From Hondaea fermentalgiana (taxonomy: Eukaryota > Sar > Bigyra > Thraustochytrida > Thraustochytriidae), in contig NPFB01000030.1 in NCBI GenBank assembly GCA_014084085.1, positions 187,371-250,503 on the forward strand: 63,133 nucleotides of DNA, read 5' to 3'. Below the pieces are notes generated by a model. That model did not search any database and had not been told where the DNA came from. It saw only the letters and a list, made by a program, of their open reading frames with translations. How positions within the stretch are numbered: position 1 is the stretch's first letter; the number at the start of each line of letters is the position of its first letter. The translations under genes were made by a program, and so were the position numbers. Below are positions 39,444 through 56,567 of the stretch, piece after piece.

Positions 39444-40500
39444 ATGGCATTCGAAAGCTATTCCACGCGGTGCGCTCAAGAACGCGATCTGAGTGCTCTT
39501 GAACGGCTCGAGAGTTTTGTAAAGCCGAGCTTTCGCGTAAGTGTCAAGGAGCTCAAGCATCGCGTCGCATCGCCCAACGGTACCTCTGGTGCGCTCATCC
39601 TGGAAATTCCCAATCATCATTCCGCCGCCCGAGCCTCCTCTGCGTCACTCTCGTCCGACGACTCGACATCGGCATCGTCGGCGCCAGAGTCGAGATCTTC
39701 GCAATCTGAAGACAACGACCAGCTGTCTGCAGGCAGACCTTACGCCAGTGCTGACAATACGCTTATTGTAGGCGTTTTGTACTTTGTTCGTGCGAACAAG
39801 CGCAAGACCCAGCAATTGCGGTACAAGTCTGTGTTTGACCAAGCTGACCCGGAAGGCGACACTGTCTTTTGGGTACATCTCGTGCTCGACCCGCAAGCAC
39901 GAGACCTACTCGACTACTTTCATGCGGCTGCACGCACGTACTGCTTTGACACTCTTGGGGTTAACAATGTTCGTGCTCTTACTCATTGCAGCGATGTGAG
40001 TGAAGGGGCAATTTCCAGTTTGTGGGATCTCGAAGACTACGTTACGACAGCCAAGCGCACGGATCGTAACCTGTTCTTGCACTCGAGCCACGGCGCAACC
40101 TTCGTTGGCCTTATTTCGGGCTACAATATGCGCGACACAGTGAATGCAGGGTATGCCGTGATTATGCAGTACGATCGGGAGCCCGACACCAAGAATGCCG
40201 CGTTTGACGTCATGCGCAAGGACGCTACGATCGCTCGCGTGTCAGTTTCTGTGCTTCGCGACCTCGTATGCGGTGCGATCGGTCTCTCCGACGAGGCCGG
40301 TCACAGGTCCTTTGATGCAGATCGCCCATGGTTTGAGCTAGGACTCGATTCTGTCTCGCTCATGGATTTGCACGGAAATCTCGAAACTGCGTTGAACAAG
40401 GAGCTCGATGTATCCTTTCTGTTTGCGATTAACACCTTTTCTAAGCTTGTGCGTGCCGTAGGCGACACAGACGAGGGCAAGGGCGATGAGGCAAGCCAGC
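39444..40500 (+). other. PKS loading module: GNAT-like domain and ACP1
   Basis: Residues about 1-260 match the GNAT-like domains that start some bacterial assembly lines such as CurA: VGVLYF, DPEGDTVFWVHLVLD, then LHSSHGATFVGLISGY with DTVNAG (H213, H216), the histidine-rich signature of the family. A Ser-rich insert (about 58-90) interrupts the N-terminal half. In CurA-type systems this domain has been linked to acyl loading with decarboxylation of malonyl-CoA, giving an acetyl starter. ACP1 follows at about residues 265-345 with S303 in GLDS. Confidence 0.75.
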
Positions 40501-43500
40501 ATGCAGCGAACCGTACTCCAATGCCAGAGGCTAGAGGTGCAGTATCCACTGGTCTCTCCGTGCTTGGTCTCGGACTTCGCTTTCCTAACCATCGCGGTGC
40601 TGACACGGATCTAGAAACTCTCGAAGCCTTTCACGCAGCTCTTCACGAGGACGACGGGGACAACGCTTCCTACAAACGCCTCGTGCAGCGTGCGCGTTTT
40701 GCGGACCAATTTCTGGAAAAGGGCATCAGTGCAGAACAAGCGCGCTGCATTCCCTTTGCGCAACGACTTGCCTTAGAGACTGCCTTCTCTGCGCTAGCAG
40801 ATGGACCGCCTGGGCTTCTCGAGGCCGCCAATCGCCGCGTCGGAGTCTTTGTAGGCGCATGGGACGGAGGCTGTCGTGAGGAAATGCAAAAGACAAGTGA
40901 AGATGAAGCGGCTTCTGCACACGCTGCTGCGGGATTCTCAACATCAATCATTGCCAATCGCATCTCGTACATGCTTGACCTGTCTGGTCCAAGCGTTGTA
41001 GTGGATACAGCCTGCTCTAGTTCGCTAGTCGCGCTAGATTATGCATGCAAGTCCATTGCAGCGGGAACTTGTGAGGTTGCTCTCGTGATCGGCGTCAATG
41101 TTGTTGACGAGACAAATTCGGACTCTCGCACCGCCCTGCTCCGCCAAGGCGGGTTTCTCTCATCTTCATCGGCATGCTTTGCCTTTGATGACCGCGCCGA
41201 CGGATATGCGAGAAGTGAAGGCGCTGGGGCACTTCTCCTTGCACGCGCGGGTCTTCTCCCTGGCGCGCAAGATTATGCACGTGCCAAGGTCGCTGCGGTC
41301 AGTGTGAACCAGGATGGACGTACCGTCAATCTCCATGCACCAAACCCTGAAGCACAAACAACGCTCATTCAAGAAGCGTGCCGCATGGCTGGCGTTGAGC
41401 CTCATCAAGTGTCTTTTGTACAGACGCATGGCACGGGAACGCGCCTGGGTGATCCCATCGAGGCAGCTGGTCTTCACGCAGCGCTGCGATCTTCCTCTTT
41501 CCCGAATGATTCACACAACGTCCAATCACCATCGCTGGCGGCGCCGGAACCTTTGTTTCTGACGTCCATTAAGTCCCAATTTGGACACCTCGAAGGAGCA
41601 GCCGGGATGATCGGTCTCATTGCCACTATACTCGCGCTGCAGACCCGGGAACTCCCTGCCAATCGTCGTCTGCAAAAACTCAATCCAGCCGTTGACTTTG
41701 ATGCCTGGAATCTGGCTCCTGTGGGCTCAGTGGGTCCGGTGAAGCTACCTGCGGAAGCGCAAAGCCTTGTGGCCGGCGTTTCTTCGTTCGGATTCGGTGG
41801 GACAAATGCTCACGCTCTTTTACAGTCGGTCGGACCTCTTCGCGCACGTGAGGAATTTGCATCTCGGGGACCCATTCCTTGGTCTGAGAATTTTCACACA
41901 ATTCCTTTTGCGCCATTGCTTTCGGAGCCGATCGATCTTGGGGATAAGAGCGATTTGGAAAGTCTTGTGGATCATCGTCTAGGGTCTCTTGAAGTAGTTC
42001 CGGGTGCTTTTTGGGCGATCATCGCGTCTGAAATGAATCCTGGCGCCCAACTTCTTGCCCTTGGCTTTGTTTCGCTCACGCAACTTCCGGTGGACGACGA
42101 TTGGTCCATTTCACTGCGCCGTGGTTCCAAAAAGATGGCGATTGTCAACAACGCTGGTTATAGCGTCTGCGAGGCCACTGCACAGTACAATCTTTCCCCC
42201 TTGCAGGCGCTTGGCAGCTTGGCGGATACCATGGCAGCCTGCTCGTGTGCCCTGGACCTCTCTTCATTCTACACCCGATTGGGAAATCGGTATGGTCCAC
42301 GGTTCCAAGCGCTTCGTGAGGCACGCGTAAGTGACGATGGAGTCATTCTCGCCGATCTCTGTGTTGACAGACACTACTCATGTTCCGCGAGGGTCTCGCG
42401 TTCCATTCTACTCGATGCTGCGGCACATGCGTGCTTTCTTGCCTTTCAGAATCAAAGCGAAATCGAAGAACCTCATTACGCTAACGGATTCGAGGCACTT
42501 TGGTGCGATCAGCAATGGCTGCAGAGCAGTCCGGAATCCACAACATGGCGGTGCGTTGTCTATCGTCGAGATTCTTTGCGCTTCGATTGGGACATCTTCT
42601 CTCCAACGGGAAAGCTTGTCGTTTCCGCGAGAGGATTTACTTTAGGGAAGACGCGTGTAACCCGCTCCTCATCAGTCCCTCTGCAACGCCAGCACGTGGT
42701 TGTGTGCCGTTCTGTCTGGCAATTCCTAAGCACCGATGAACTCGCTTCGCAGCGTCGCGTAGAGCCGGATGTTGTCATTAGCGAACCGTGCTGCGAATCG
42801 CTTCATAAGCGCATTCAAGGACTTCTCGAGTCGACAAATCGACCACGCGTGTGTGTTCGTATCCAAGACTCTGCACAAGAGGGCTACATTCGCTCGCTGC
42901 GGCGTGAAGAGCCAGCATGGCCACTTCATATGTATTGCGGCCCCGATCACGAGGACGTTGTCGTTCTCGAGGATGAGCCAGAGGTTCTCGTATCTGGGCC
43001 AGATCAACTTGCTGTGCGTCGGCTGATTCCTCTAGAGGATACCCGTGAGAGCACGATCACGAGTCCTTCGCCTGTCGTCTGCCCTGTTGAAAATGGAACC
43101 TATCTGATTTCCGGCGGAGCAGGTGCCATTGGGTTGAGGATGGCTCGTGAATTACTTGCACGTGGTGCTGGCAAAGTTCTTTTGTTGGGTCGCTCGAAGA
43201 TGCCGAGCGGTCAATCAGCTGCATCTCTTCAGGGCTCTGTGTACCTGCAGTGTGACATTAGCGATGAGGCAAGTGTCCGCAGGGTTGTTGGGCCCTATGC
43301 GAACGAAATCCGGGGCGTCATCCACTGTGCAGGCGTTCTTCGCGATGGGATGATTGGAAAACTTTCCCATTTTAGCGAGGTCTTCGCCGGCAAAGTTGTT
43401 GGCGCAGAGTCGCTCATGAAAGTCATTGACCCGCTTCGTGATACGCTTGACTTTTTCATACTTTGTTCTTCGGTCACTTCGTGCCTAGGAAGCGCGGGTC

Positions 43501-46500
43501 AAGCCAATTATGCTGCTGCAAATTCCGTCCTTGACGCACTTGCAGAGGCTGCAGCGTCAGAAAAGGTCGTTAGTATTCAGTGGGGGCCATGGCACGGCCC
43601 ACAAAGCATGGCAGCTGCATCTGCGACGAGGTGGGAACGTCTAGGACTGCCTCCCATGGATCCAGATGTCGCCACTGATGCGTTATTCTCTCTTAAGCGT
43701 GGTTGCGGTCCTGTAGTCTGTATTGCAGGCATGGATCCTCATGCCCCAGGAGCAGCAAGTTCGTGGGCTCGCGAACCCATGGTGCGGGAGCTCTTTCACC
43801 ATGCGAACACAATGCCATCTTCAGAATCCAGGACAACGTCTGATGACGCGCGGGTGCTGGTTCGCCGCATTTCCTCCACTTTCATTGACGATTGTGACGT
43901 TGGCGAGAACGAGATGACACCATGGCGTGATGCTGGTATGGACTCACTCGCAATGGTAGAATTTCGCAATATGCTGCGCATGGCAATTCCAGAGCACATT
44001 ACGTTGCGAGACACTGTGCTCTTTGACTATCCAACCCCTCGTGCGCTTATTGACTATTTGTCAGAGGCTATGGATGGTTCTCGTGTGCCTAGTCAGGGCC
44101 AAAATCTCGAAATGGTAGTCTCTGCTGCTTCGAGTGGTGCCTTGGCTGTCACCGGAGTTGCTTGCCGACTTCCGGGGGGAGTCGACTCCCCTGCAGCATT
44201 TTGGGATCTTTTGCAGAGTGGACGTGACACCATGACCGATATTCCTCTGGGCCGGTTCGACTGGGAAAAGTCTTCAGATCGTCTCTATGCTCGAAAAGCT
44301 GCCTTTGTGGACAACGTGGACCGCTTTGACGCCAACAAATTTAAGATCGCGCCCGTTGAAGCACAGCAAATGGACCCGCAACAGAGACTTGCACTTGAAG
44401 TTGCCTCCGAGGCACTCGAAGACGCTCAGTTGGATGCGGACGCTCGAGTTGGGGTCTTTGTTGGCGTCATGACCAACGATTGGGCTCGGCTCATGGACCC
44501 AGCCAAGCCTACGGCATATTCTGCGTCAGGTCAGATTCCTTGCGTTCTCGCCAACCGAATCTCCTATGTTCTCGGCCTTCAAGGTCCGTCCATGGCAATC
44601 GACACTGCATGCAGTTCTTCCCTTGTGGCGCTGGACGTCGCAGCTGCATCGTTGAGTCGCGGAGACTGTGACGCAGCAATCGTGCTTGGTGTGAACCTTA
44701 TTCTCGACGACGGTGTTCACGCTGAGGAATGCGCGGCCCGAATGCTTTCAGCCTCGGGGCGCTGTGCAACTTTTTCTGAAGATGCAGACGGCTACGCTCG
44801 CGGTGAGGGCTGTGTAGCATTCGTTCTCGAGCCAGAAGACACTGCAGAGAGAGCTGGCAAGGCAACATGGGGCAGTGTTCTCTCCACCGCAGTCAATCAG
44901 GATGGACGAAGCGCCAACTTGACATCTCCGAATGGTCGAGCACAAGTTGACGTGATCCGCCGAGCACTTGCTCGAGCAAAGCTTGTCGCAAACGATATCA
45001 GCTACGTTGAAACGCATGGCACTGGCACTCCGCTAGGGGACCCCATCGAAATTGGAGCCTTGAGCGACGCTCTCGACAGTCATGCAGGACAGGTTTGTCT
45101 GGGTGCTCTCAAAACCGTCATTGGTCACGGAGAGGCTGTTGCTGGCGCCTCGGGTGTGCTCAAGGCGTTGCTTTGCATTGAGCACAGCGAGGTTCCAGCC
45201 AATTTGCATCAGTCAAAGATGAATTCCAAGGTCGCAGAGGTCGCTGCGCCTTGGATGCGATTTCCTCAAAAACGACCATTTGAGTTGCCCGAACAAGCCA
45301 TTGCAGGCATCTCGGCATTCGGATTTGGCGGGACAAACGCCCATGCCATCGTGACAGGGCCACAGGGTCGCGCGCGCACGTCCTCTGAAAGTACGCGAAG
45401 AATGAAGAATCAGACCGCCCCGCGTATGCCATGGAAAGAAGATGAGCTCGTCTACAGAATCTCATGGAGTGCCAGCTCTTCTTTTCCTTCCTCTGACAAC
45501 ACCGCCGAATTGACACCAATCCATCAGGTGCAAACTTTTGAGGATGTCCTCGACGTGGTTCGAAACAAGCCAGCGCATGAAAGACTCAAGGTGACCTTTG
45601 TGACCCACGACTCTGCAACGTGTGCCTTTATTCGCTCGCTGCGGCTCGCTCGTCCTTCATGGCAGCTTCGTCTTGTTGAATCGCCTCGTGCATCGCTGGA
45701 TGGAGTCACCCTCGACAGGGACGCTCTCGAGCAACGCGTAGATGATCGTGGTCACGTGAGCATTCCGGTTCTTCAGCGAGCTCCACACTTTGTGCCATAC
45801 AGTCTCGGTGGCCTTCAGCATCTTGGTCCTGTACTTATTACAGGAGCATCAGGAGGCATCGGTCGCGCGCTCATTGACTCGCTCCTCGACGCGGGGCTTT
45901 CCCAGATTTACGCTCTCTCGCGAAGCGGCAAGGCCTCGAATGATCCGCGTGTGGAAGCGATTCAGTGCGATGTTTGTGATGCCGCATCAGTGGAGCGCGC
46001 CGCAGAATACATTGGGCCAAGCCAGGTCTCTTTCATCTTGCACGCAGCGGGCATTCTCGAAGAAAAGAGCGTTCTCGAGCTAAATTCCGACACTGTGAAA
46101 GCTCACAATTCGGCAAAAGTTCATGGGACGCGTAATCTTGCTTCGAGCTTTCCGAGTGCTTCACTGATTGCGTTTTCGTCAACATCTTCGGTCTTTGGTA
46201 TGCGTGACGCTCCTGCATACGCGATGGCAAACGCTTCTATGGAAGAAGAAATTACTCGTCTGCGCGCAGATGGTGTGCGCGCAGCAAGTTTACTTTGGGA
46301 TCTATGGGCAGAGACTGGCATGGCGCACGCGCGCTCGATGGGTAGTACTAAACGTGGCTTGAGTACCCGCCGGGCTTGCCAGATTCTTGTCGGTGTACTT
46401 CAGAATTGGAATGAAACAAACGACCCTAATGGGCTCATCATTCTCGCAGCGGATCTTGCTCGTTTGCGCCAAAGCTTGGCCAATCCAGCGCTCTTGGACG

Positions 46501-49500
46501 CACTCGCACCATCTGCAAACCTAGCGGCTTCGGCGCCTGAGCGAAGTGAGTCTGGCGATCGTTTCGCACCTCATCTGGGTCCTTCTCGACCGCCTCTTTC
46601 GCAGAGTCTGCGTCAAGCCTCCACTGCTGAACGCAAAGCTATCCTGGAAGACTGGCTAATCGTCAATGCTCGGGAGCGCTATACGGACACGAGTGCTACT
46701 CTTACGCCCCAAACCTCCTGGCAGCAGGTCGGTTTCGACTCTCTGTCCATGACCGAATTTACTGCCGCTTTGAATGATGCCATTGGGTTCCGCAACTCGC
46801 CGGATGAGCTCTCGGACACTGTCATGTTCGATTATCCTAACGCGCATGAACTTGCGAGCCACGTAGCCCAGGTGTGGGAATTGGAGTCGCGAAGCTTCGT
46901 CAGCGAAGGCAATTCCGCTTCGATAGTTGCAGACCAAGCGCCTGAAGCAGCTGTTGTGAGCATGGCTCTTCGTTTCCCTGGATCGCGCCTGAACGCAAGT
47001 CCTGAGGGATTTTGGGACTTTTTGTGCAGCGGAGGCGACGCGATGCAGGACATTCCTCCAGAACGCATCCCAACTTTGGCTCGCGACGATGTTGACAAGG
47101 AGGACGGGAAACGATTCTCTGGCGTATACGTCCGCAGGGGCGCCTTCTTGCACCCAGATCTCTTTGATGCCGACATCCGTGGAGCCTTTCCTTTCTCAGA
47201 TGCAGAAAGCCTAGCCATGGACCCTCATCAACGTCTTGGCCTTCAAGTCGCAGGCGAGGCGCTCGAGTCTGCCAAAGTTGCTGGCGCCAACATGACTTGC
47301 GTTGGAGTCTTTGTTGGAGCGCAAAATACAGAGTACACGCTGTCCCAGGCTGATCGAGTGGGAACCTTTACTGCGACAAGCACAGCTCTTTCCATCATCG
47401 CCAATCGCATTTCCTACGCCTTTGACCTGTCTGGCCCCTCTATGACAATCGACACGGCATGTTCTTCATCGCTCGTCGCTCTGGACGCCGCGCTAAAGGC
47501 TCTTCACGCAGGTGATTGCACGAGCGCGCTCGTTTTGGCCGTCGATCTGATGCTTTCGCCCCACCGCTTTGAGACTACCTGCGCGGCGCGCATGCTTTCG
47601 CCAAACGGTCGTTGCGCGACCTTTTCGGATGCGGCCGACGGATATGCTCGCGGTGAAGGCTGCGCTGCTTTGGTTGTGACACTTGACCAGTCAAGTGAAC
47701 TTCCAGCTTGGGGCATTGTTCACGGCATCGCGCTCAATCAGGACGGCAAGAGTGCAAATTTGACATCTCCGCGTGGGCCCGCCCAAATCGCCTGCATCGA
47801 GTCTGCCTTGCAGCGTGCAGGTGTTGTGGATCGCGATCAAGTCGTCTTTATCGAAGCACATGGCACGGGGACCAAATTAGGCGATCCTCAAGAGCTCGAG
47901 GCTCTGTCGACCGTCTTTAAAGACCGACGCAAGCCCTTGCATGTTGGTGCCGTCAAGTCATCGATTGGGCATCTCGAGGCCGCCGCTGGTCTTGCGGGTG
48001 TAATCAAGGCACTCTTAAGCCTCAAACACGGCGTGCTGCCTCCGAATTTGCACTGTGATCAGCTCAATCCCCGTATTGCAAAGCTTCAGACGCGCTGTCC
48101 TCTGCGCTTTCCTCAAGGCCAGATGATCAAATTGGAACCTGCAGCGCACCGCCTTGCTGGTGTCTCTTCGTTTGGATTTGGTGGCACGAATGCTCACGTG
48201 ATTCTTGGATCCGTACCGGATGCACGTGCCGACCGCGCAGCTCGTTGCTTTCGGCCAAACCTCTTTATCGCACCTGCGATCGAACTTCGTCCGGTAACCG
48301 GTGTTCCAGGCAAGTGGAAGGAATTATTGCTGCCTAGGACCGCAAATCTCATCCGAAACCACCGCGTCGGCTCACTTCCAGTGCTCCCTGCGACATCGTA
48401 CATGGAGCTCGTGCACCCACTCTTTGAAGGGGCCGCCCTGGAGTTTTCGGATCTTGATTTGCGTAGTATGTACTTTCTCGAGATGGCGAGGCGCAGGGAA
48501 GCAAAAGCAGACGCCTCTTTGGAGTTTGATCTCGAGCTAGATGAAGTCACCAGCACTGTGTCGATTTCCTCGGCCCGCGACGGACGCCTTCGAGCGACGA
48601 TGAAAGTAAGAAAGTTGGAGAACGCGCCTCCACGAGTTGATCTCGCCATGCTTCGTGAAAAGTGCAGGCGCGAACTCCCAAGTGGCGACGCATTGTACGA
48701 AACAATTGGAAACCAATACCAAGGGCCATTCCGCGCCGTGTCTGCCGCATGGTCTAGCAAGGATGGTGACTTGCTGCTTGGTCGAGTGTCAATGGACCAG
48801 TTCGTTTCAGCGGAAACCCTTGCTTCTGCCTGGCTAGACGCGGCATCGCACGTAGCGCTAGCCGCAATGGACTTGGAGCATCGCAAAAAACCAGTCTATG
48901 CAGAGAGTGTAAAGGGCTACATGCTTGCGGCAGCGAACATGAAGCGCCAAGCCGCTGCCGATCCCTTTGTTTGGTCGTGTCTTACAAAAACGTCAGACAA
49001 TACTTTCGACATGGAGATCTGCAGAGACTCCGGCGAGGTTCTCGCTCAAGTTCGTCAGTTCAGCTTCGGGTTCTTCTCTGCGACGTCATCCGAGATCTCG
49101 AAACCGTTGCAAGATTCGACTCGATTGTGGAGAGATGAGTGGGTCGAGCTTAACCTTGGAAGGGACGACTCGCAACTCGCTGTTGAGGTCATCGATCTTC
49201 CTACCGTAGAAAGCTTACTCCCAGAGTTGGCCCATCGCTTGCGCATGGGTCCATCCAATTCTTATGTAGTGCTGGCGCACACAGCCATGCACTGTGGGCT
49301 CATCGCATGCACGCGGCGCGAGTACACGAGTGCAACGCTTGTCACCGTAGAGGGCGGCAGATTACCTAATGGCGTTCATGCTGCTCAGCTCGTCTCTGTG
49401 GCACACAAAACTGGGATGACCTCGTTTCGCGTCAGCTCTACGGATGCAAGCATATATGGTCGAAGAAGAGTTGCCATGGAAGCTGCGAGCCCACAAGACG

Positions 49501-52500
49501 CGCTTTTGCGCGTGAAGCGTGGCGCGACGTATCTCGTGACCGGTGGCGGCGGAGCTCTTGGACTGCAGGTCGGGAGGGAAATTGCATTGCGTGGTGGCAC
49601 CGCTGTCCTCTTGGGGCGCTCTGCACATTTAGCACCTGGTGTGGAGCTCCCTGCAGGCTGCCGCTATGTATGTTGTGATATTACGGACTCAAGTGCTGTC
49701 TCCCGAGTTCTCAGCAAGTCGGAAAATCTTCGTGGAATTGTGCATTGCGCAGGCGTCTTGCGCGACGGGACGCTCCAATCCGCCCAGCCGAATGACTTTG
49801 AAGAAGTTGGCGCCCCCAAGCTGCAAGGAGCCCAGGCGCTCTTGGACAATGTGGATAGACGACAGCTTGATTTTGTGGTGCTCTTTTCCTCGATCGCGGC
49901 TACAATCGGGTCCGCAGGTCAAGGGGTGTACGGTGCAATCAACGCGTCCCTGGACGCGATTGCTGAACGCGAGCACGCCAATGGCACACCTATCGTGAGC
50001 ATTCGCTGGGGCCCTTGGTCAGGCGCTGGAATGGCAGCAACGCTACAAGCAAAGTGGAAAAGGATGCGTCTACAAGCTTTGACGCCTCAAGATGCCCTTG
50101 ACGAAATGTTTCGGCTGCCCCGTACCCATGCGGTCGTGACAATTTGCGAATTTGATGATGCAAACGAACAGTCTCTTTCACCGCCAGGCACTGCAAAATT
50201 GCATGCGCGATCCGGATGGTCTCGAAGCAGCTTGTGTGAGCTCATTCTGGACATTGCACAAGAAGTCAGCCCTGATCATACTCGAGTTGGCATGGAGGAT
50301 CCGTGGCGGGACGCCGGACTCGACTCGCTCGCCATGGTTGAGTTTCGCAATCTGCTTCAGGATCGCATTGGCACCGAGACGGCGCAACTTGAAGATACGC
50401 TTTTACTTGACTATCCAAACGCTGATGTACTGGTTGACTGGCTCGTGTCTCAGCTTCCATCCAGCCCCGAAGGACCTGTCGGAAACGAAACTTCGGTGAT
50501 GAGCATTGTCACCAGCGACGTCAACACGGGGCCAAGATCTCTCGTCGGAGATGAAGAACACATGAAAAGACAGTCTTGCACCACCACCACCACTACCACC
50601 AAGAGCAACGACAACAAAAACAACAGCATTGACGAATTCCGGAAGCAGGCAGAATTCGCTAGTCCAAATGAGGCTGTGGGGTACATGCCAAGGGCTAAAG
50701 TAGTTGTGACCGGCGTTGCGTGCAGGCTTCCAGGAGGTGCAAACTCTCCAGATCGCTTTTGGGAGCTTCTTTGCTCGGGTCGCGATGCCATGCGACCTGT
50801 TCCCCTCTCGCGATTCGACATGAGCGCTCATTTTGACCCTGATCCATCGGTTCCTGGCAAATCTTATGTGGACCGAGGCGCTTTCATTGACAATGTTGAT
50901 GCTTTTGACAACAATAAATTCGGTATCTCTGATCTCGAAGCAGCACGCATGGATCCTCAGCAGCGGATTGCTGTGGAATGCGCCTATGAAGCTCTCGTGA
51001 GCGCTGGCGTGGTCGAGGAGCCAACCAAGTCCGGCGCTAAAGTGTCTCCATCAGCGGTGAAACAAGCCAAAGTCGGCGTCTTCGTTGGAATGATGACAAA
51101 CGATTGGGCCTCAATGGATCATGGTACGCCCTCCGCCTTCACTGCTACGGGTCATTCCCCCGCAGTAGCGTCGAACAGGATCTCATACATCTTTGGCCTC
51201 ACTGGTCCTAGCATGACCATTGACACTGCATGCAGCTCCTCTCTGGTAGCGCTTGATGCAGCGCGCAGAAGCTTGGAAAGCGGGGACTGCGAAGCAGCTC
51301 TCGTTGTTGGTGTCAACCTGATACTTTCGCCCCAGCTATATGTGGAAGAGTGCGCAGCGCGTATGCTTTCTTCGCGGGGCCGCTGCGCAACCTTTTCGGA
51401 AGATGCTGACGGATATGCGCGCGGTGAAGGCTGCGTTGCCATCGTTTTGCAGCGAAGCGATGATCCAAGCCGTTTATCAGCGCTTGGTGAAGTTCTCAGT
51501 ACTGCAGTCAATCAAGATGGACGCAGTGCAAACATTACCTCGCCCAATGGACGAGCGCAGGAAGAGGTCATTGGCCTCGCGATCGAGCGAGCCGGAATTC
51601 GTCCCGAAAGTGTTGCCTACGTTGAAACTCATGGCACTGGGACTGCTCTTGGGGATCCGCTCGAAGTAAGCGCGCTCTCGCGCATTTTCCGGGACAGGGA
51701 GAGTCCACTCGTACTTGGGGCGGCCAAGGCCTCCGTGGGACACACCGAGGGAGCCTCCGGGCTCACGGGTCTCTTGAAGGCACTTCTCTGTGTGCATCAT
51801 GGTGTGGTACCAGGAAATGCAAGCCTCGAAGATGGCCCCAACGCAAAACTTAATCCCAAAGTGCAACAAGTTGCACTGTCGCAGATGCGATTTCCTGGGC
51901 GCGGGGCCAGTGTTACGCTTCCAGTGGACGCGGTGGCGGGCATCTCAAGTTTTGGTTTCGGCGGGACGAACGCTCACGTTATAGTACGAGCTCCGACTGC
52001 ACATGAAGGACATTTTGATATGAGTCGGGGCAGAGAAGATATTAGCTGGGCGCCAACGCACTTTAGAAGTCCTCTCGCCAGGAAGGACACTCTCGTGACT
52101 GGTCACCATAGTCTCATGAGGGATGGAAACGACCGTGACTTTCGAAAAAACCGTGCGCCACGTGAATTTGGACTCTCGGTCAAGGCTACAGCCCATGAGG
52201 TGCTTGATCTCTTTCTCTGGGAGATGGCCGCTGCACAGCCGCGCGGGCAAGACGATCAAGAATTTTGGAGCATCCAGTTCGAGGATTTGCATCAATGCTC
52301 GATGGGCCGTCTCTCTGTCGACGCAAAGCACCGTCGGATCATCAGCAAGGATGAGACGCCAGGAGACCAAGTCATTTGCAGCGCCGCAGAGCCCTGTGGC
52401 AGCGGGTCGCATACATGGCTTGATAAAAGTAACGCAGAAGACGTTTGGGAGCAGCAATCAGTCACATGGTTTCGCGAGCAGACGTCCTCGCTTGGATGGC

Positions 52501-55500
52501 GCTCCGATATACTGACAGCAAGTGAGATTCTCGTTTCACGAGAAACAAATGCTATTCGACTGAACTTCCCGCAAGGTGCGTTTTCCCAACAGGGTTATCT
52601 ATATGCGCCAAATTCTCTTGGCGAGTGCGTGTTGGCTTTGGGGTTGACGCAAGTATGGGAAGAAGAAGCTCGGACGGGCCATCGTGTTACGACTGTTCCT
52701 TCCTTGACGTCAATCGATAAGTTGTGGCACGCTACAGGCCCAAATTTGTCAAGGTCCACGGAGGAAGGGGCGTTTTATTGTGTTGTTCGTGCATGTGGGG
52801 AATTGACGCTCATTGACGAGGCTTGCAACAAGACAATTTTGAAAATGCAAGGTGCACAATGCGCTTTTGGACAAGGTTTTGGCGGAACGTCGACGTACAC
52901 TCGATCCTGGACACCTCGCCATATATCTGCATGTGCGAGGTCGTCCGTCATCCGTCAAGTTGGACTCGAGGCTGCACGTCGACATGTGCACCCCGTTGAA
53001 ATGAAGGATCCTGTGGGCGATGAAGCATTGGAGCATTATTGTGCTGAGCACATTCGAAAGACGCTCGCCGCAATGCCTTCCGGTTTCGAGCCCTCTGAAC
53101 CACATCTCGCGCTTCTCTACCGTCGATGGCAGCGCGCCTATGGCCATACGTCTGGCGATGTAAAAGCGCAGCAAACGTACCAATCAGCGCCTTCGGGTGT
53201 AGAGTTTGACTTTGCTCAAAATTGTGTCGACGCGCTGCCTGCGATTATCAAGGGAGAACGGCCCGCTCTAGACGTTCTCTTCTCGAAACCTGCGTTAACG
53301 ACCCGTTTGTACAGTGAGTCCACGCCTTCGAATACATGCAATCGAGCGATCGCGCAGAGTGTCCAGGGCATTGCAGAAACCATTTACAATACAGCGTCTA
53401 GTTCTCAGCTTTTGCGCGTGCTCGAGCTTGGCGCGGGAACAGGAGGCACTACAATGCATGTAGTCGACTTGCTCGACCAAGAGCGCACGGAATACGTCTT
53501 TACGGACATTTCCGACTACTTTTTACGTCAAGCCGAAACCACCTTTGCGTCTTACAAAGACATGATGCGCTATGCATTGCTGAATGTGGAGGAGCCTCTC
53601 GCACCGCAGGGCTTTGGCCCGAGTCAGTTTGACGTTATCATTGCTTCCAACATTGTCCATGCAACGCAGGAGCTACACGTAACCTTGAGCAACATTGCCA
53701 AACTTCTGGTCCCGGGTGGCTGCTTTTTGCTCAATGAAGCCACAGTTTCAACTGCGTTTCTTGACGCGACATTTGGTCTTACAAGTGGGTGGTGGCGATT
53801 TGCAGCCGCACAAGATGCTTCAAGGCCCGAGCGAGATGGACCCTTGCTAGCACCACTGAAATGGCGTTCTTTGCTTTTGTCCGAGGGCTTTGCTAGCTTT
53901 GATGTGGTGCACGAAGCGGCGCAAGGCCAGGTCGTCATGGCAGCTATCCTCGATTCCAGTACTTTGCAGCCGCCCTTGGCCTTGCAGCCCTCAGCGAGGG
54001 CTGCTGGGATCAACGTCGTAAGCGATCGCCAAGATGACGAACTCTTTCATACGCTCCACGCAAGCTCGCAAGGGGAAGGCGCCTCGATTGACGCACTCGT
54101 TCTTATCGCCTCAAGGGAGTGTGAGGTCGGCCTGGAAGCTGATGCAACACGTTTCTGGTTCGATACGCTGCAAACATTTGCAAGCAAGCCACAAGGCACG
54201 CTTGTGGTCGTGACGCGGAGCGATGAGTGTCCTTTGCATGCAGCGCTCTGGGGTATGGCGAGGAGTCTCTCCTTGGAAATGTCTCCAGGATCGTGGCGCA
54301 TCGTGTGTCTCGATCTTGACAGAGACTCGCAAATACAAGACATAGTTTCCGCCGTGCATGCCGAAGTCCTTTGGAAGCCTTCCAGCAAGGGATCAGGAAC
54401 GCTTCAGGTTCGTCTCGTGAGCGGGGAACGATATCTCGGTGTGCTCGACCGGTATGCGGTGCCGATTCCACCTCGTTTGCCTCCAAAGCTGGACGGCACG
54501 TATGTAGTGACGGGCGGACTGGGTGGTCTTGGTTTGCTCACGGCCTCACTGTTACTTGACCGTGGTGTAAGGAACCTCGTGCTCGTGTCAAGGTCTGGGC
54601 GTCTTCGTGAGAATGATATCAACGCGTCGACAGAGGCAGACATTATGGATCGCATCTTGAGCTGTGAAGGTGTTACTTTGAGACGCGTGGCGTGCGATGT
54701 TGGCAATCGAGAGGATTTGGAGCGCAAGGTCTTTAATCGAATCGATGCAGACGACCGTCTCCCTCCCGTGCGGGGCATTGTACATGCAGCCGGCATTCTG
54801 CGCAATCGTGCAATGAAAAGTATGGACTACGCAGCAGAATTTTTGCCTGTATTCGTGACCAAGGCCAAGGCGGCAAGGCATCTTGACCATATCGCCCGGG
54901 AGCGCAGGTATGATCTCGAACACTTTGTGCTGTATTCTTCTGCTGCAAGCACCTTTGGTTCTGCTGGGCAGAGCAACCACGCTGCAGCGAATGCAGTAAT
55001 GGACGCCATTGTGTCCCAACGACGCACAGCGGGCCTTTGCGGAACGTCGGTGCAGTGGGGCGGATGGGATGATCTCGGCGCAGCAGTAGCGTCACAGCGA
55101 ACGCAGGAAACGGTACTTGGTCGTGGAATGGGGCTACTTCCGATTGAGAACGGCGCGAACGCGATTCGAGACATTTTCCAGAGCGAAACAGCGCCTGTTT
55201 TCGGCGTCAGCGCGGTTTCGTGGCCAATCTTTGGGCCTCAGCAGGCGGATCCTACCTTTATTGATCGATTCTACCAGGCAAAACACCCGACTGGTGCAAG
55301 GGAAACGGAAGATGCGCAACCGACGTCCACACAGCCTGAAACGAAGAGCATGCAGGAAGAGGGATCGACTGCCAAGAGCGAAGCGCAGGCATCGTCGCTC
55401 GTTGAAGCTTTGCTCAGTGAATGTGGTATCCAAGATATGTCCGCATCGTTGGCTGATCAGGGCCTTGACTCACTGACCTCAATCGAACTCATCGGACTCG

Positions 55501-56567
55501 TGCGCGCGCAAACAGGCGTGAAGCTTTCACCAACATTCTATCTCGACTGTGTCAATGGCCACGGTCTCGCTGCATTACTTGCTCCGTCTCTGAGTAAGCA
55601 TAGTACTTGCGCACCGTCCCTGAATGATACTGGGAAGGTTACAGAAGCGCCATCACAAGTGGAGACAGCGACTGTGACAACTCATAAGAGCGCTTCTGCT
55701 TCAGCTCTAGATGGTGCAGAGACAGATCTCCCCTCAACTTCGGCGTGGCTCGAGCCACTTTTTGCTCCGAAAATGCGTTTGTTCTGCTTTGCCTACGCGG
55801 GAGGGCATCCGAATGTATTTCGAGAGTGGACAATGCACATTCCCGCTTGCGTCCAGATTTGCCCTGTCGCTATGCCTGGCTACGGAAAACAGACAGATCG
55901 CGCGTTTTGGCGCTCGATTCCGGAATTAGCTGCGAGTGTGAGCGCCTCGCTTCCCTCAGATGTTCCATTTGCGCTCGCTGGATCGTGCCTTGGCGCCATA
56001 ATTTCCTTTGAGGTAGGGCGAACGCTTCGGCAAACGGGCCGCAGACTACCGCTGCACCACTTTGCAATGGCGTGCAGCGCGCCTCAGGATTACTCGCGTG
56101 CACTGCGTCTCCTTTACAGCCATCGACTGAAGGAAAATGCATTCTTTGTCCCATCTGACGAGGCGCACGCTGCTGTGCGTTTCCAGGATCTAAGTGAAAA
56201 GGAGCGCGACGACACGGTGCAAGATTTACATCAGCTAGGCTTCTTCAAGGACGACGAGACGTTGTCAAATCTTGCATCCAACAAGGTATACTTTGAGCAT
56301 GTCATGGCTCAAATTGCGGGACAGATGCAGCTTGCGGAGCGCTATGTTTATGAAAAGACGTCTTCCTCTGAGGGCCCCGTAATCCCTGTGACTGCAATCA
56401 GCGGAAGGCTTGACGATACAATTCCTACTGGTTGGCCACAGGCATGGGAAGCTCACGCTCCCCAGGGAAGTTTTCGGCACGTGGAGATCGCAGATGGTGG
56501 GCACTACATTTTGCAAACACATGCGGCTCAGGTGACTCATGCGATCATCGAAGACTTGCTCGACTGA
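39444..56567 (+). CDS. Giant AT-less modular type I polyketide synthase
   Basis: 5707 residues in one uninterrupted 17-kb frame. Domain order: GNAT-like, ACP | KS-DH-KR-ACP | KS-KR-ACP | KS-DH-KR-ACP | KS-degenerate DH-cMT-KR-ACP | TE. All four KS have the Cys-His-His triad context (DTACSSSL, HGTGT, GH of the third motif), and all five ACPs have the DS attachment site (S303, S1501, S2433, S3628, S5343). No acyltransferase (GHSxGE-type) domain occurs; the KS-to-DH linkers are only about 50 residues. Extender units must come from a separate AT, as in bacterial trans-AT synthases. It is not a PUFA synthase: no tandem ACPs, no MAT, no ER. The flanking genes are eukaryotic housekeeping types and no cluster partner is evident. 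Horizontal origin is possible but not shown. Confidence 0.95.
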   Translation: MAFESYSTRCAQERDLSALERLESFVKPSFRVSVKELKHRVASPNGTSGALILEIPNHHSAARASSASLSSDDSTSASSAPESRSSQSEDNDQLSAGRPYASADNTLIVGVLYFVRANKRKTQQLRYKSVFDQADPEGDTVFWVHLVLDPQARDLLDYFHAAARTYCFDTLGVNNVRALTHCSDVSEGAISSLWDLEDYVTTAKRTDRNLFLHSSHGATFVGLISGYNMRDTVNAGYAVIMQYDREPDTKNAAFDVMRKDATIARVSVSVLRDLVCGAIGLSDEAGHRSFDADRPWFELGLDSVSLMDLHGNLETALNKELDVSFLFAINTFSKLVRAVGDTDEGKGDEASQHAANRTPMPEARGAVSTGLSVLGLGLRFPNHRGADTDLETLEAFHAALHEDDGDNASYKRLVQRARFADQFLEKGISAEQARCIPFAQRLALETAFSALADGPPGLLEAANRRVGVFVGAWDGGCREEMQKTSEDEAASAHAAAGFSTSIIANRISYMLDLSGPSVVVDTACSSSLVALDYACKSIAAGTCEVALVIGVNVVDETNSDSRTALLRQGGFLSSSSACFAFDDRADGYARSEGAGALLLARAGLLPGAQDYARAKVAAVSVNQDGRTVNLHAPNPEAQTTLIQEACRMAGVEPHQVSFVQTHGTGTRLGDPIEAAGLHAALRSSSFPNDSHNVQSPSLAAPEPLFLTSIKSQFGHLEGAAGMIGLIATILALQTRELPANRRLQKLNPAVDFDAWNLAPVGSVGPVKLPAEAQSLVAGVSSFGFGGTNAHALLQSVGPLRAREEFASRGPIPWSENFHTIPFAPLLSEPIDLGDKSDLESLVDHRLGSLEVVPGAFWAIIASEMNPGAQLLALGFVSLTQLPVDDDWSISLRRGSKKMAIVNNAGYSVCEATAQYNLSPLQALGSLADTMAACSCALDLSSFYTRLGNRYGPRFQALREARVSDDGVILADLCVDRHYSCSARVSRSILLDAAAHACFLAFQNQSEIEEPHYANGFEALWCDQQWLQSSPESTTWRCVVYRRDSLRFDWDIFSPTGKLVVSARGFTLGKTRVTRSSSVPLQRQHVVVCRSVWQFLSTDELASQRRVEPDVVISEPCCESLHKRIQGLLESTNRPRVCVRIQDSAQEGYIRSLRREEPAWPLHMYCGPDHEDVVVLEDEPEVLVSGPDQLAVRRLIPLEDTRESTITSPSPVVCPVENGTYLISGGAGAIGLRMARELLARGAGKVLLLGRSKMPSGQSAASLQGSVYLQCDISDEASVRRVVGPYANEIRGVIHCAGVLRDGMIGKLSHFSEVFAGKVVGAESLMKVIDPLRDTLDFFILCSSVTSCLGSAGQANYAAANSVLDALAEAAASEKVVSIQWGPWHGPQSMAAASATRWERLGLPPMDPDVATDALFSLKRGCGPVVCIAGMDPHAPGAASSWAREPMVRELFHHANTMPSSESRTTSDDARVLVRRISSTFIDDCDVGENEMTPWRDAGMDSLAMVEFRNMLRMAIPEHITLRDTVLFDYPTPRALIDYLSEAMDGSRVPSQGQNLEMVVSAASSGALAVTGVACRLPGGVDSPAAFWDLLQSGRDTMTDIPLGRFDWEKSSDRLYARKAAFVDNVDRFDANKFKIAPVEAQQMDPQQRLALEVASEALEDAQLDADARVGVFVGVMTNDWARLMDPAKPTAYSASGQIPCVLANRISYVLGLQGPSMAIDTACSSSLVALDVAAASLSRGDCDAAIVLGVNLILDDGVHAEECAARMLSASGRCATFSEDADGYARGEGCVAFVLEPEDTAERAGKATWGSVLSTAVNQDGRSANLTSPNGRAQVDVIRRALARAKLVANDISYVETHGTGTPLGDPIEIGALSDALDSHAGQVCLGALKTVIGHGEAVAGASGVLKALLCIEHSEVPANLHQSKMNSKVAEVAAPWMRFPQKRPFELPEQAIAGISAFGFGGTNAHAIVTGPQGRARTSSESTRRMKNQTAPRMPWKEDELVYRISWSASSSFPSSDNTAELTPIHQVQTFEDVLDVVRNKPAHERLKVTFVTHDSATCAFIRSLRLARPSWQLRLVESPRASLDGVTLDRDALEQRVDDRGHVSIPVLQRAPHFVPYSLGGLQHLGPVLITGASGGIGRALIDSLLDAGLSQIYALSRSGKASNDPRVEAIQCDVCDAASVERAAEYIGPSQVSFILHAAGILEEKSVLELNSDTVKAHNSAKVHGTRNLASSFPSASLIAFSSTSSVFGMRDAPAYAMANASMEEEITRLRADGVRAASLLWDLWAETGMAHARSMGSTKRGLSTRRACQILVGVLQNWNETNDPNGLIILAADLARLRQSLANPALLDALAPSANLAASAPERSESGDRFAPHLGPSRPPLSQSLRQASTAERKAILEDWLIVNARERYTDTSATLTPQTSWQQVGFDSLSMTEFTAALNDAIGFRNSPDELSDTVMFDYPNAHELASHVAQVWELESRSFVSEGNSASIVADQAPEAAVVSMALRFPGSRLNASPEGFWDFLCSGGDAMQDIPPERIPTLARDDVDKEDGKRFSGVYVRRGAFLHPDLFDADIRGAFPFSDAESLAMDPHQRLGLQVAGEALESAKVAGANMTCVGVFVGAQNTEYTLSQADRVGTFTATSTALSIIANRISYAFDLSGPSMTIDTACSSSLVALDAALKALHAGDCTSALVLAVDLMLSPHRFETTCAARMLSPNGRCATFSDAADGYARGEGCAALVVTLDQSSELPAWGIVHGIALNQDGKSANLTSPRGPAQIACIESALQRAGVVDRDQVVFIEAHGTGTKLGDPQELEALSTVFKDRRKPLHVGAVKSSIGHLEAAAGLAGVIKALLSLKHGVLPPNLHCDQLNPRIAKLQTRCPLRFPQGQMIKLEPAAHRLAGVSSFGFGGTNAHVILGSVPDARADRAARCFRPNLFIAPAIELRPVTGVPGKWKELLLPRTANLIRNHRVGSLPVLPATSYMELVHPLFEGAALEFSDLDLRSMYFLEMARRREAKADASLEFDLELDEVTSTVSISSARDGRLRATMKVRKLENAPPRVDLAMLREKCRRELPSGDALYETIGNQYQGPFRAVSAAWSSKDGDLLLGRVSMDQFVSAETLASAWLDAASHVALAAMDLEHRKKPVYAESVKGYMLAAANMKRQAAADPFVWSCLTKTSDNTFDMEICRDSGEVLAQVRQFSFGFFSATSSEISKPLQDSTRLWRDEWVELNLGRDDSQLAVEVIDLPTVESLLPELAHRLRMGPSNSYVVLAHTAMHCGLIACTRREYTSATLVTVEGGRLPNGVHAAQLVSVAHKTGMTSFRVSSTDASIYGRRRVAMEAASPQDALLRVKRGATYLVTGGGGALGLQVGREIALRGGTAVLLGRSAHLAPGVELPAGCRYVCCDITDSSAVSRVLSKSENLRGIVHCAGVLRDGTLQSAQPNDFEEVGAPKLQGAQALLDNVDRRQLDFVVLFSSIAATIGSAGQGVYGAINASLDAIAEREHANGTPIVSIRWGPWSGAGMAATLQAKWKRMRLQALTPQDALDEMFRLPRTHAVVTICEFDDANEQSLSPPGTAKLHARSGWSRSSLCELILDIAQEVSPDHTRVGMEDPWRDAGLDSLAMVEFRNLLQDRIGTETAQLEDTLLLDYPNADVLVDWLVSQLPSSPEGPVGNETSVMSIVTSDVNTGPRSLVGDEEHMKRQSCTTTTTTTKSNDNKNNSIDEFRKQAEFASPNEAVGYMPRAKVVVTGVACRLPGGANSPDRFWELLCSGRDAMRPVPLSRFDMSAHFDPDPSVPGKSYVDRGAFIDNVDAFDNNKFGISDLEAARMDPQQRIAVECAYEALVSAGVVEEPTKSGAKVSPSAVKQAKVGVFVGMMTNDWASMDHGTPSAFTATGHSPAVASNRISYIFGLTGPSMTIDTACSSSLVALDAARRSLESGDCEAALVVGVNLILSPQLYVEECAARMLSSRGRCATFSEDADGYARGEGCVAIVLQRSDDPSRLSALGEVLSTAVNQDGRSANITSPNGRAQEEVIGLAIERAGIRPESVAYVETHGTGTALGDPLEVSALSRIFRDRESPLVLGAAKASVGHTEGASGLTGLLKALLCVHHGVVPGNASLEDGPNAKLNPKVQQVALSQMRFPGRGASVTLPVDAVAGISSFGFGGTNAHVIVRAPTAHEGHFDMSRGREDISWAPTHFRSPLARKDTLVTGHHSLMRDGNDRDFRKNRAPREFGLSVKATAHEVLDLFLWEMAAAQPRGQDDQEFWSIQFEDLHQCSMGRLSVDAKHRRIISKDETPGDQVICSAAEPCGSGSHTWLDKSNAEDVWEQQSVTWFREQTSSLGWRSDILTASEILVSRETNAIRLNFPQGAFSQQGYLYAPNSLGECVLALGLTQVWEEEARTGHRVTTVPSLTSIDKLWHATGPNLSRSTEEGAFYCVVRACGELTLIDEACNKTILKMQGAQCAFGQGFGGTSTYTRSWTPRHISACARSSVIRQVGLEAARRHVHPVEMKDPVGDEALEHYCAEHIRKTLAAMPSGFEPSEPHLALLYRRWQRAYGHTSGDVKAQQTYQSAPSGVEFDFAQNCVDALPAIIKGERPALDVLFSKPALTTRLYSESTPSNTCNRAIAQSVQGIAETIYNTASSSQLLRVLELGAGTGGTTMHVVDLLDQERTEYVFTDISDYFLRQAETTFASYKDMMRYALLNVEEPLAPQGFGPSQFDVIIASNIVHATQELHVTLSNIAKLLVPGGCFLLNEATVSTAFLDATFGLTSGWWRFAAAQDASRPERDGPLLAPLKWRSLLLSEGFASFDVVHEAAQGQVVMAAILDSSTLQPPLALQPSARAAGINVVSDRQDDELFHTLHASSQGEGASIDALVLIASRECEVGLEADATRFWFDTLQTFASKPQGTLVVVTRSDECPLHAALWGMARSLSLEMSPGSWRIVCLDLDRDSQIQDIVSAVHAEVLWKPSSKGSGTLQVRLVSGERYLGVLDRYAVPIPPRLPPKLDGTYVVTGGLGGLGLLTASLLLDRGVRNLVLVSRSGRLRENDINASTEADIMDRILSCEGVTLRRVACDVGNREDLERKVFNRIDADDRLPPVRGIVHAAGILRNRAMKSMDYAAEFLPVFVTKAKAARHLDHIARERRYDLEHFVLYSSAASTFGSAGQSNHAAANAVMDAIVSQRRTAGLCGTSVQWGGWDDLGAAVASQRTQETVLGRGMGLLPIENGANAIRDIFQSETAPVFGVSAVSWPIFGPQQADPTFIDRFYQAKHPTGARETEDAQPTSTQPETKSMQEEGSTAKSEAQASSLVEALLSECGIQDMSASLADQGLDSLTSIELIGLVRAQTGVKLSPTFYLDCVNGHGLAALLAPSLSKHSTCAPSLNDTGKVTEAPSQVETATVTTHKSASASALDGAETDLPSTSAWLEPLFAPKMRLFCFAYAGGHPNVFREWTMHIPACVQICPVAMPGYGKQTDRAFWRSIPELAASVSASLPSDVPFALAGSCLGAIISFEVGRTLRQTGRRLPLHHFAMACSAPQDYSRALRLLYSHRLKENAFFVPSDEAHAAVRFQDLSEKERDDTVQDLHQLGFFKDDETLSNLASNKVYFEHVMAQIAGQMQLAERYVYEKTSSSEGPVIPVTAISGRLDDTIPTGWPQAWEAHAPQGSFRHVEIADGGHYILQTHAAQVTHAIIEDLLD
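40537..44080 (+). other. PKS module 1: KS-DH-KR-ACP
   Basis: KS1 (about 365-795) has C524, H662 and H715. DH1 (about 815-1100) has His in VDHRLGSLEVVPG (H844) and Asp in LLDAAAHA (D991). KR1 has GGAGAIG (1224-1230) and the catalytic Tyr in ANYAAAN (Y1356). ACP2 carries S1501 in GMDS. Expected output is an alpha,beta-unsaturated acyl chain. Confidence 0.85.
44138..46870 (+). other. PKS module 2: KS-KR-ACP
   Basis: KS2 (about 1565-1975) has C1723. The KR2 region with its structural half follows directly after a ~30-residue linker; GASGGIG begins at G2134 and the catalytic Tyr is in AYAMAN (Y2259). ACP3 carries S2433 in GFDS. Expected output is a beta-hydroxyl. Confidence 0.85.
46940..50470 (+). 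other. PKS module 3: KS-DH-KR-ACP
   Basis: KS3 (about 2500-2920) has C2673. DH2 has His in NHRVGSLPVLPA (H2973) and Asp in WLDAASH (D3132). KR3 has GGGGALG from G3367 and Tyr in GVYGAIN (Y3496). ACP4 carries S3628 in GLDS. A Thr/Asn/Lys low-complexity linker encoded by acc/aac repeats (50580-50630) leads to module 4. Confidence 0.85.
50690..55570 (+). other. PKS module 4: KS-degenerate DH-cMT-KR-ACP
   Basis: KS4 (about 3751-4180) has C3930. About residues 4210-4480 show a DH-like fold remnant, but the Asp-helix block reads LYAPNSLGECVLALG without the catalytic Asp. The C-methyltransferase (about 4500-4850) has SAM motif I LELGAGTGGTT (from L4660) and the family strings FTDIS, ASNIVHAT, PGGCFLLNEAT and FGLTSGWWRF. 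KR4 has GGLGGLG (from G5024) but SNHAAAN, with H5179 in place of Tyr. ACP5 carries S5343 in GLDS. Confidence 0.82.
55730..56567 (+). other. PKS terminal thioesterase with Cys nucleophile
   Basis: Residues about 5430-5707 resemble the alpha/beta-hydrolase thioesterases of the type II (GrsT/RifR) style: LFCFAYAGGHPNVFREW, VAMPGYGKQ, then the nucleophile elbow AGSCLGAIISFEVGR, which aligns with GHSxGAxxxFExAR and puts C5515 at the Ser position. The Asp is likely in ISGRLDDTIP and the His in GGHYIL. It should release the chain by hydrolysis or cyclisation. Confidence 0.8.

Follow-up and report, generated by a model that had tools for sequence, protein, structure and literature searches.

Herein, we describe a polyketide synthase (PKS) gene of the thraustochytrid Hondaea fermentalgiana in which no acyltransferase (AT) could be detected. 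The gene occupies positions 39444–56567 (+) of the window, by which we mean the whole stretch of 63,133 nucleotides that was analysed (C161:187371–250503, on a contig of 308,660 bp in a genome of 36.0 Mb and 238 contigs). It is a complete four-module gene of 5,707 codons in a single uninterrupted open reading frame (ORF). We consider it likely that its product works as a single-protein, probably non-iterative, AT-less modular PKS of a labyrinthulomycete, with malonyl units predicted to be supplied in trans and a product predicted to be colinear with the modules. This reading is carried by the domain order, the absence of a detectable AT, the fold of an N-terminal GNAT domain, conserved substitutions, the family of relatives and the placement of the ketosynthases (KSs) in trees; the starter, the supply in trans, colinearity and the product are inferred.

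Domains were located with Pfam, run on the protein as three overlapping pieces, together with a scan of linker pieces and motif mapping. Pfam and whole-genome searches for KSs and acyl carrier proteins (ACPs) gave four KSs, five ACPs, four ketoreductases (KRs), one dehydratase (DH), a methyltransferase (MT) and a thioesterase (TE), in agreement with the four KSs, five ACPs and TE that an earlier note on this DNA had counted in one protein of 5707 residues. The order is GNAT-ACP1 / KS1-DH-KR-ACP2 / KS2-KR-ACP3 / KS3-DH-KR-ACP4 / KS4-DH remnant-MT-KR-ACP5 / TE. As in multimodular type I PKSs, several KS-to-ACP modules and a release domain are therefore joined in one chain.

All domains lie on the forward strand, and the five ACPs were assigned by PF00550. 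The GNAT-type domain (39444..40181, right boundary approximate) is followed by the loading ACP1 (40251..40460). Module 1 comprises KS1 (40521..41831, with its Cys-His-His motifs), DH1 (41901..42653, PF14765, His and Asp motifs present, left boundary approximate), KR1 (43095..43595, Pfam, Ser/Tyr motif present) and ACP2 (43911..44060). Module 2 consists of KS2 (44109..45374), the catalytic half of KR2 (45831..46313, Pfam, Tyr present, boundaries approximate) and ACP3 (46698..46865); no DH was seen in it. In module 3, KS3 (46929..48227) precedes DH3 (48291..49073, boundaries approximate), which was assigned from a PF21089 match below the cut-off (E 6e-4) and from its His and Asp motifs, KR3 (49524..50021, Pfam, Tyr present) and ACP4 (50241..50444). 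Module 4 contains KS4 (50688..52007), a putative DH remnant (52434..52868), a C-methyltransferase (C-MT; 52944..53957), KR4 (54495..55073) and ACP5 (55398..55574), and the TE (55776..56564, PF00975) ends the protein. KS2, KS3 and KS4 were placed by the KS search and by motifs. DTACSSS and HGTGT are present in all four KSs. Motif mapping picked up the second His motif in KS1–3, and in KS4 it was recognised by eye.

An AT within the protein was sought by Pfam, by a custom hidden Markov model (HMM) and by fold prediction, and none was found, as the earlier note had claimed. PF00698 gave no match in the window protein, neither in the Pfam pieces nor in a whole-genome search. The custom AT HMM was built from 60 of 278 GHSxGE stretches and run unfiltered at E<=10; it recovered both free-standing ATs of the genome and the five ATs of the five-KS cis-AT protein P0003 as a positive control, and had no match in the window protein. 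The modules thus lack a detectable AT of their own, one of the two traits of a trans-AT PKS in the functional sense, the other being a free-standing AT that loads the ACPs. The spacings given in the earlier note (about 50 residues from KS to DH, about 30 from KS2 to the KR structural half) were reproduced: 54 residues separate the end of the KS1 GTNAH motif (residue 790) from the DH His (844), 55 separate that of KS3 (residue 2918) from the DH His (2973), and roughly 37, judged by eye, separate that of KS2 (residue 1967) from the KR structural half. The KS-to-DH spacing of 54–55 residues is short beside that of other AT-less proteins, where 53 distances measured by regex, not all of them genuine, have a median of 197. 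This had suggested that the family is peculiar in having lost the KS-AT linker, an idea we dropped, since KS3 of P0010 and KS3 of P0012, both in AT-less modules, have a similarly short linker to their KR.

The only room for a hidden AT lies after KS4, where 481 residues precede the MT motif and where 474 residues scanned had no Pfam match at E<=10. No AT was found there by Pfam, the custom HMM or fold prediction, among the families on the VIA list and with the first ~157 residues excluded by sequence search only, because nearly all of them were modelled at a predicted local distance difference test (pLDDT) score below 50. Beyond these residues the fold model matches the DH-like remnant and methyltransferase that the earlier note had read there. 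The remnant part of the model aligns with the stretch preceding the C-MT in LovB and EcPKS2, and its active-site His motif is unmatched. On this model it would correspond to the C-terminal half of a DH, the residues before it being of low confidence.

Two substitutions, which had escaped the earlier note, distinguish the end of the protein. In KR4 the catalytic Tyr is replaced by His (residue 5179, 54978–54980) in 5/5 family members (the window protein, P0001, P0002, P0121 and P0126), while Tyr was kept in 276/276 KR motif matches of the other proteins compared (His in 0/276). In the TE the nucleophile motif reads GSCLG, with Cys (residue 5515) at the nucleophile position, again in 5/5 members; the Asp and His of the triad were assigned by eye. 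Across the TE region P0001 and P0002 share 73% and 60% identity with the window protein, and the best TE match outside the family had an E-value of 1.6e-8. Since both substitutions are fixed in five members at 44–56% identity, the enzyme appears to be in use rather than decaying.

Pfam, even at E<=10, matched nothing in the first 285 residues, and the domain at the N-terminus had been missed in the earlier note. Residues 108–241 match the GNAT domain of GphF (6mfc, E 1.1e-5), the only phmmer match in the PDB at E<=0.001. In a Foldseek search with an AF2 model of residues 1–345 (mean pLDDT 72), ranks 1–5 were taken by the GNAT domains of GphF, CurA and SxtA (E 7.8e-12 to 1.4e-10), and other GNATs started at 3e-6. 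A GNAT fold therefore precedes the loading ACP, as in CurA and GphF; the window domain differs from the known loading GNATs in sitting at the extreme N-terminus of an AT-less eukaryotic PKS. The GNAT of CurA is described as a decarboxylase and S-acetyltransferase acting on malonyl-CoA in the text available of PMC3252866, and by analogy the window domain may have a comparable role. T180, H181 and H213 of the domain are invariant in 4/4 sequences. Within its own genome, the domain found only itself. When the GNAT-ACP alignment was run against GTDB genome contigs, 41 sites fitted the pattern, of which tblastn identified none as a relative. The GNAT-ACP region matched six proteins, in word-based lists that are incomplete, as P0001 is absent from them though it carries the domain. 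Four of the six (P0122–P0125) lie outside the family and have 0 ATs by the custom HMM. Only P0124 (Massilia) is named among them, and its match covers 39% of the query; that of P0125 covers 16%. P0125 itself (7,367 aa, ENA) is an AT-less PKS with Pfam matches to enoyl-CoA hydratase, HMG-CoA synthase, sulfotransferase and thioesterase; its GNAT-like start and a flavin-monooxygenase (FMO) part were seen by eye only, and its KSs group near the window family.

Four homologues were found, two full-length and two incomplete: P0001 (5,639 aa, 56% identity over aligned positions), P0002 (5,416 aa on a 207-kb contig, 48%), P0121 (5,019 aa, 44%, fragmentary across KS2 and KS3) and P0126 (partial, 3,568 aa on a 10.8-kb contig, 45%). 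PF00698 is missing from the precomputed domain lists of all four, and the custom AT HMM matched none of them significantly, its single hit being an insignificant one in P0001 (i-E 0.41). Among the 120 listed of 819 matches, full coverage by the best local alignment is confined to P0001 and P0002; the others reach 14–27%, a figure that counts one alignment piece per protein. P0121 is named EryA1 in an NCBI record labelled Durusdinium trenchii, a coral-symbiont dinoflagellate, and may belong either to the dinoflagellate itself or to a protist associated with it.

A KS phylogeny had been proposed in the earlier note, and its cis-AT and trans-AT part was carried out; named chlorophyte, haptophyte, dinoflagellate and apicomplexan KSs are absent from the trees, except P0121 with its Durusdinium label. 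Reference KSs came from a random draw of 14/42 AT-less, 14/57 cis-AT and 4/19 mixed proteins, plus all of P0122–P0125. A quick tree held 109 rows and a careful tree 94, after removal of five long branches (both polyunsaturated fatty acid (PUFA) synthase KSs, the ketoacyl synthase of contig C175, and KS1 and KS4 of P0125) and ten near-duplicates (from P0005 and P0028). In the careful tree the 14 family KSs fall on one side of a branch with support 94/86, and KS2–KS4 of the family (10 rows) group at 100/97, suggesting that modules were duplicated inside the lineage. KS1 forms a long branch and was not firmly joined to KS2–4 in the quick tree. The family KSs, KS2–3 of P0125 and a KS from contig C1 of the same genome group at 99/96, with a long-branch warning, and this set lies between the cis-AT and trans-AT rows (81/77 on the trans-AT branch, 80/84 on the cis-AT branch). 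Two deeper splits, supported at 99/86 and 99/93, set the family together with the cis-AT rows against 25 and 29, respectively, of the 39 trans-AT rows. Among the references sampled, then, the KSs are not nested within those of bacterial trans-AT PKSs, and the trans-AT kinship suggested in the earlier note was not supported: the enzyme is AT-less, yet its KSs stand outside the bacterial trans-AT group, with moderate support. An approximately unbiased test that rejected a clade of family, neighbours and trans-AT rows (p 0.00017) was set aside and is not used as evidence, because it omitted four AT-less mixed-synthase rows, at least some of them among the trans-AT rows, which may be the sole cause of the rejection.

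The proposed process would begin with the GNAT domain decarboxylating malonyl, so that ACP1 carries an acetyl starter. ACP2–5 would receive their malonyl groups from a free-standing transferase whose gene lies elsewhere, the protein from contig C1 being our best guess. Modules 1 and 3 (each KS-DH-KR) would each form an enoyl unit, and module 2 (KS-KR), between them, a beta-hydroxy unit, while module 4, with its DH remnant, MT and altered KR, would add an alpha-methyl group and leave the beta-keto group. Release by the Cys thioesterase would yield, on naive colinearity, 2-methyl-3-oxo-7-hydroxydeca-4,8-dienoyl or a cyclised form.

Free-standing genes of the kind such a process would need do occur in the genome, and an AT acting in trans on this PKS is plausible on sequence grounds. 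Two AT-like genes were found, on contigs C29 and C1. The C29 gene (456-aa ORF) scores 87.7 bits with PF00698 and E 6.3e-64 with NCBIfam fabD; the C1 gene (331-aa ORF) scores 38.4 bits, with E 3.1e-27 for mdcH and 3.9e-21 for fabD, and its nearest solved structure is human MCAT (6.2e-20). Both clear the PF00698 cut-off and fall below the curated NCBIfam cut-offs. Their GHSLGE/GFSVGE and APFHC/GAFHT motifs align with the Ser and His of cis-ATs. The C1 protein has no obvious targeting peptide by eye. Phosphopantetheinyl transferase (PPTase) ORFs, which like free-standing ATs the earlier note had suggested seeking, lie on C227 (AASDHPPT_N and ACPS) and C3 (ACPS), and a further PPTase lies within a fatty acid synthase (FAS)-like ORF.

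Several observations weigh against this reading. Neither AT-like gene is on the contig of the PKS, and PF00698 had no match on C161, so no AT is linked to the PKS. The C29 protein is probably mitochondrial, judging by eye from an Arg/Ala-rich stretch after its first ATG. The C1 ORF, which lies ~2.2 kb after an AT-KS-ACP-FMO-like ORF ends and is oriented the other way, may serve that gene instead. KR4 may keep activity in spite of its His. In the trees, the branches flanking the family set reach only 80/84 and 81/77, and the 14-row family group had a Shimodaira–Hasegawa-like approximate likelihood ratio (SH-aLRT) of 33 in the quick tree. Finally, the gene with the same domain order in another thraustochytrid, Mn4_04057, is expressed at 3.52 fragments per kilobase per million (FPKM; PMC6050695).

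The neighbouring AT-KS-ACP gene is a large ORF on C1 (L005:4492-9900 (+) and L006:2-778 (+)) with partial matches to AT, KS, ACP, a methionine-synthase-like part and a flavin-monooxygenase-like part. A comparable pair is listed in Mn4, where the AT-KS-PP gene Mn4_10926 (FPKM 308.75) is adjacent in numbering to the AT gene Mn4_10925 (PMC6050695, in the part available).

The alternative with the greatest weight, though one we hold to be distinctly the less probable, is that AT function comes from the malonyl-transferring (MAT/MPT) domain of a FAS or PUFA synthase, either of which could serve the PKS, or that the ACPs take their acyl groups from some other donor. A 4,201-aa FAS-like ORF with AT, KS and ACPS matches on C101, a PfaB-like region on C199 and the lack of an AT gene on the PKS contig all fit such a supply, while the two free-standing AT-like genes with their Ser and His motifs speak against it, as does the use of discrete ATs by the AT-less PKSs of bacteria. 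The C199 ORF is PUFA-synthase-like, with two KSs, a PfaB match below the cut-off and a PfaD match above it (TIGR02814, E 2.5e-198), and together with the C101 ORF it points to a labyrinthulomycete; no separate PUFA KS-MAT subunit turned up in the genome KS and AT searches. Beside it, L007:1-3500 on C199 may be a run of N, as long open frames, five in all, cover it on both strands. PUFA synthases of thraustochytrids occur in the same kind of organism and share KS and ACP enzymology with the window protein, but they are iterative and have AT parts of their own, and their KS rows were long branches far from the window family in the quick tree.

That the gene is instead a true bacterial trans-AT PKS acquired by horizontal transfer seems unlikely. 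The AT-less architecture with an in-line C-MT and a GNAT start fits such an origin, and the four GNAT-ACP matches outside the family are free of ATs; bacterial trans-AT PKSs (P0124, and disorazole DszA in its C-MT fold) share AT-less modules, in-line C-MT and, in some, GNAT-ACP-like starts with the window protein, which differs from them in having no AT on its contig. The window KSs, however, are placed apart from those of trans-AT PKSs, by the family supports and the deeper splits alike, and only the two relatives cover its full length among the matches listed. We regard decay of the enzyme as very improbable: the DH remnant, the KR4 His and the low FPKM of the Mn4 gene would suit it, but the frame of 5,707 codons is open, the motifs of four KSs, five ACPs and the TE are intact, and the same substitutions recur in all five homologues, which suggests selection. 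Bacterial contamination or chimeric assembly is hardly credible. The ORF is large and intronless, and the named matches among those listed are nearly all bacterial, yet eukaryotic genes flank it on both sides, its codon usage and GC are close to those of its neighbours, full-length homologues exist in other assemblies, and the Mn4 genome, sequenced with PacBio and Illumina, holds the same architecture.

The eukaryotic locus assumed in the earlier note was thus supported by flanking genes, homologues and codon usage, and the PKS is, to the extent that this can be judged without sequencing reads, not a contaminant. Neighbouring ORFs match TBCC, NPR2, Rsm22, NDH2-like, Ctr, PfkB and protein kinases. 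The GC content at third codon positions of the PKS is 0.525, and its relative synonymous codon usage correlates with that of ten neighbouring ORFs at r 0.55–0.89. Of 31 ORFs listed, 16 flanking ones were scanned and showed no clear tailoring gene. Elsewhere in the window, 12191–19498 (-) encodes a 2,435-aa ORF with fn3 and EF-hand matches, and on another contig (G000:C7:112492-120516) a 4,583-aa ORF with three carrier-protein matches is perhaps a synthetase of the nonribosomal peptide type.

The earlier note had held that a eukaryotic enzyme of this kind would be remarkable. A first in eukaryotes it is not, since AT-less modular PKSs are reported from algae (PMC4661987) and a matching domain string from Mn4 (PMC6050695), as far as the text available of each goes. 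According to Shelest and others (2015, PMC4661987), nearly all of ~30 non-iterative PKSs of algae depend on an AT acting in trans; those of chlorophytes above all are likewise multimodular, AT-less and eukaryotic with the AT presumed in trans, a likeness drawn by description rather than by sequence, and GNAT is not mentioned for them in the part available. An AT-less modular PKS with an adenylation-like start is described from the pelagophyte C. taylorii (PMC10366177), and 26 trans-AT against 4 cis-AT genes from three Symbiodiniaceae genomes (PMC6361889), both from partial text. The closest account is that of Mn4_04057 (BMC Genomics 2018;19:541, PMC6050695, Table 4), listed among genes "without AT domain" in a genome of 65.69 Mb and 45% GC, against 36.0 Mb here. 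Its order, PP-KS-DH-KR-PP:KS-KR-PP-KS-DH-KR-PP:KS-MT-KR-PP-TE (PP, phosphopantetheine site), is the same as ours by domain string, not by sequence, and the part of the paper available weighs it only as a candidate for docosahexaenoic acid (DHA) synthesis, with no mention of a GNAT domain, of substitutions or homologues, or of a KS phylogeny. In open-licence PMC literature, no further thraustochytrid case was apparent from titles or the beginnings of abstracts. The position of the KSs is consistent with AT displacement as envisaged by Shelest and others (PMC4661987, from the text available), algal KSs being outside our tree.

In conclusion, the PKS is real, known in kind and distinctive in detail: its GNAT start, its KR4 and TE changes and its KS placement are not mentioned in the available parts of prior accounts of such PKSs. 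Tentatively, and with rather less confidence than in the enzyme itself, we suggest that it belongs to a eukaryote-specific family of AT-less assembly-line PKSs, independent of the bacterial trans-AT lineage, with a GNAT start, a reductase-dead methylating last module, a Cys thioesterase and one conserved alpha-methyl-beta-keto product in labyrinthulomycetes and perhaps in associated protists. Thraustochytrids are cultivated for DHA, and the available text of PMC6050695 describes no modular polyketide. What had been a single line in a table becomes an enzyme family with clear outlines, whose predicted product can be tested. As the four modules lie in one 17-kb open frame, expression of the whole gene is possible in principle, which would make the malonyl supply to an AT-less eukaryotic PKS directly testable.
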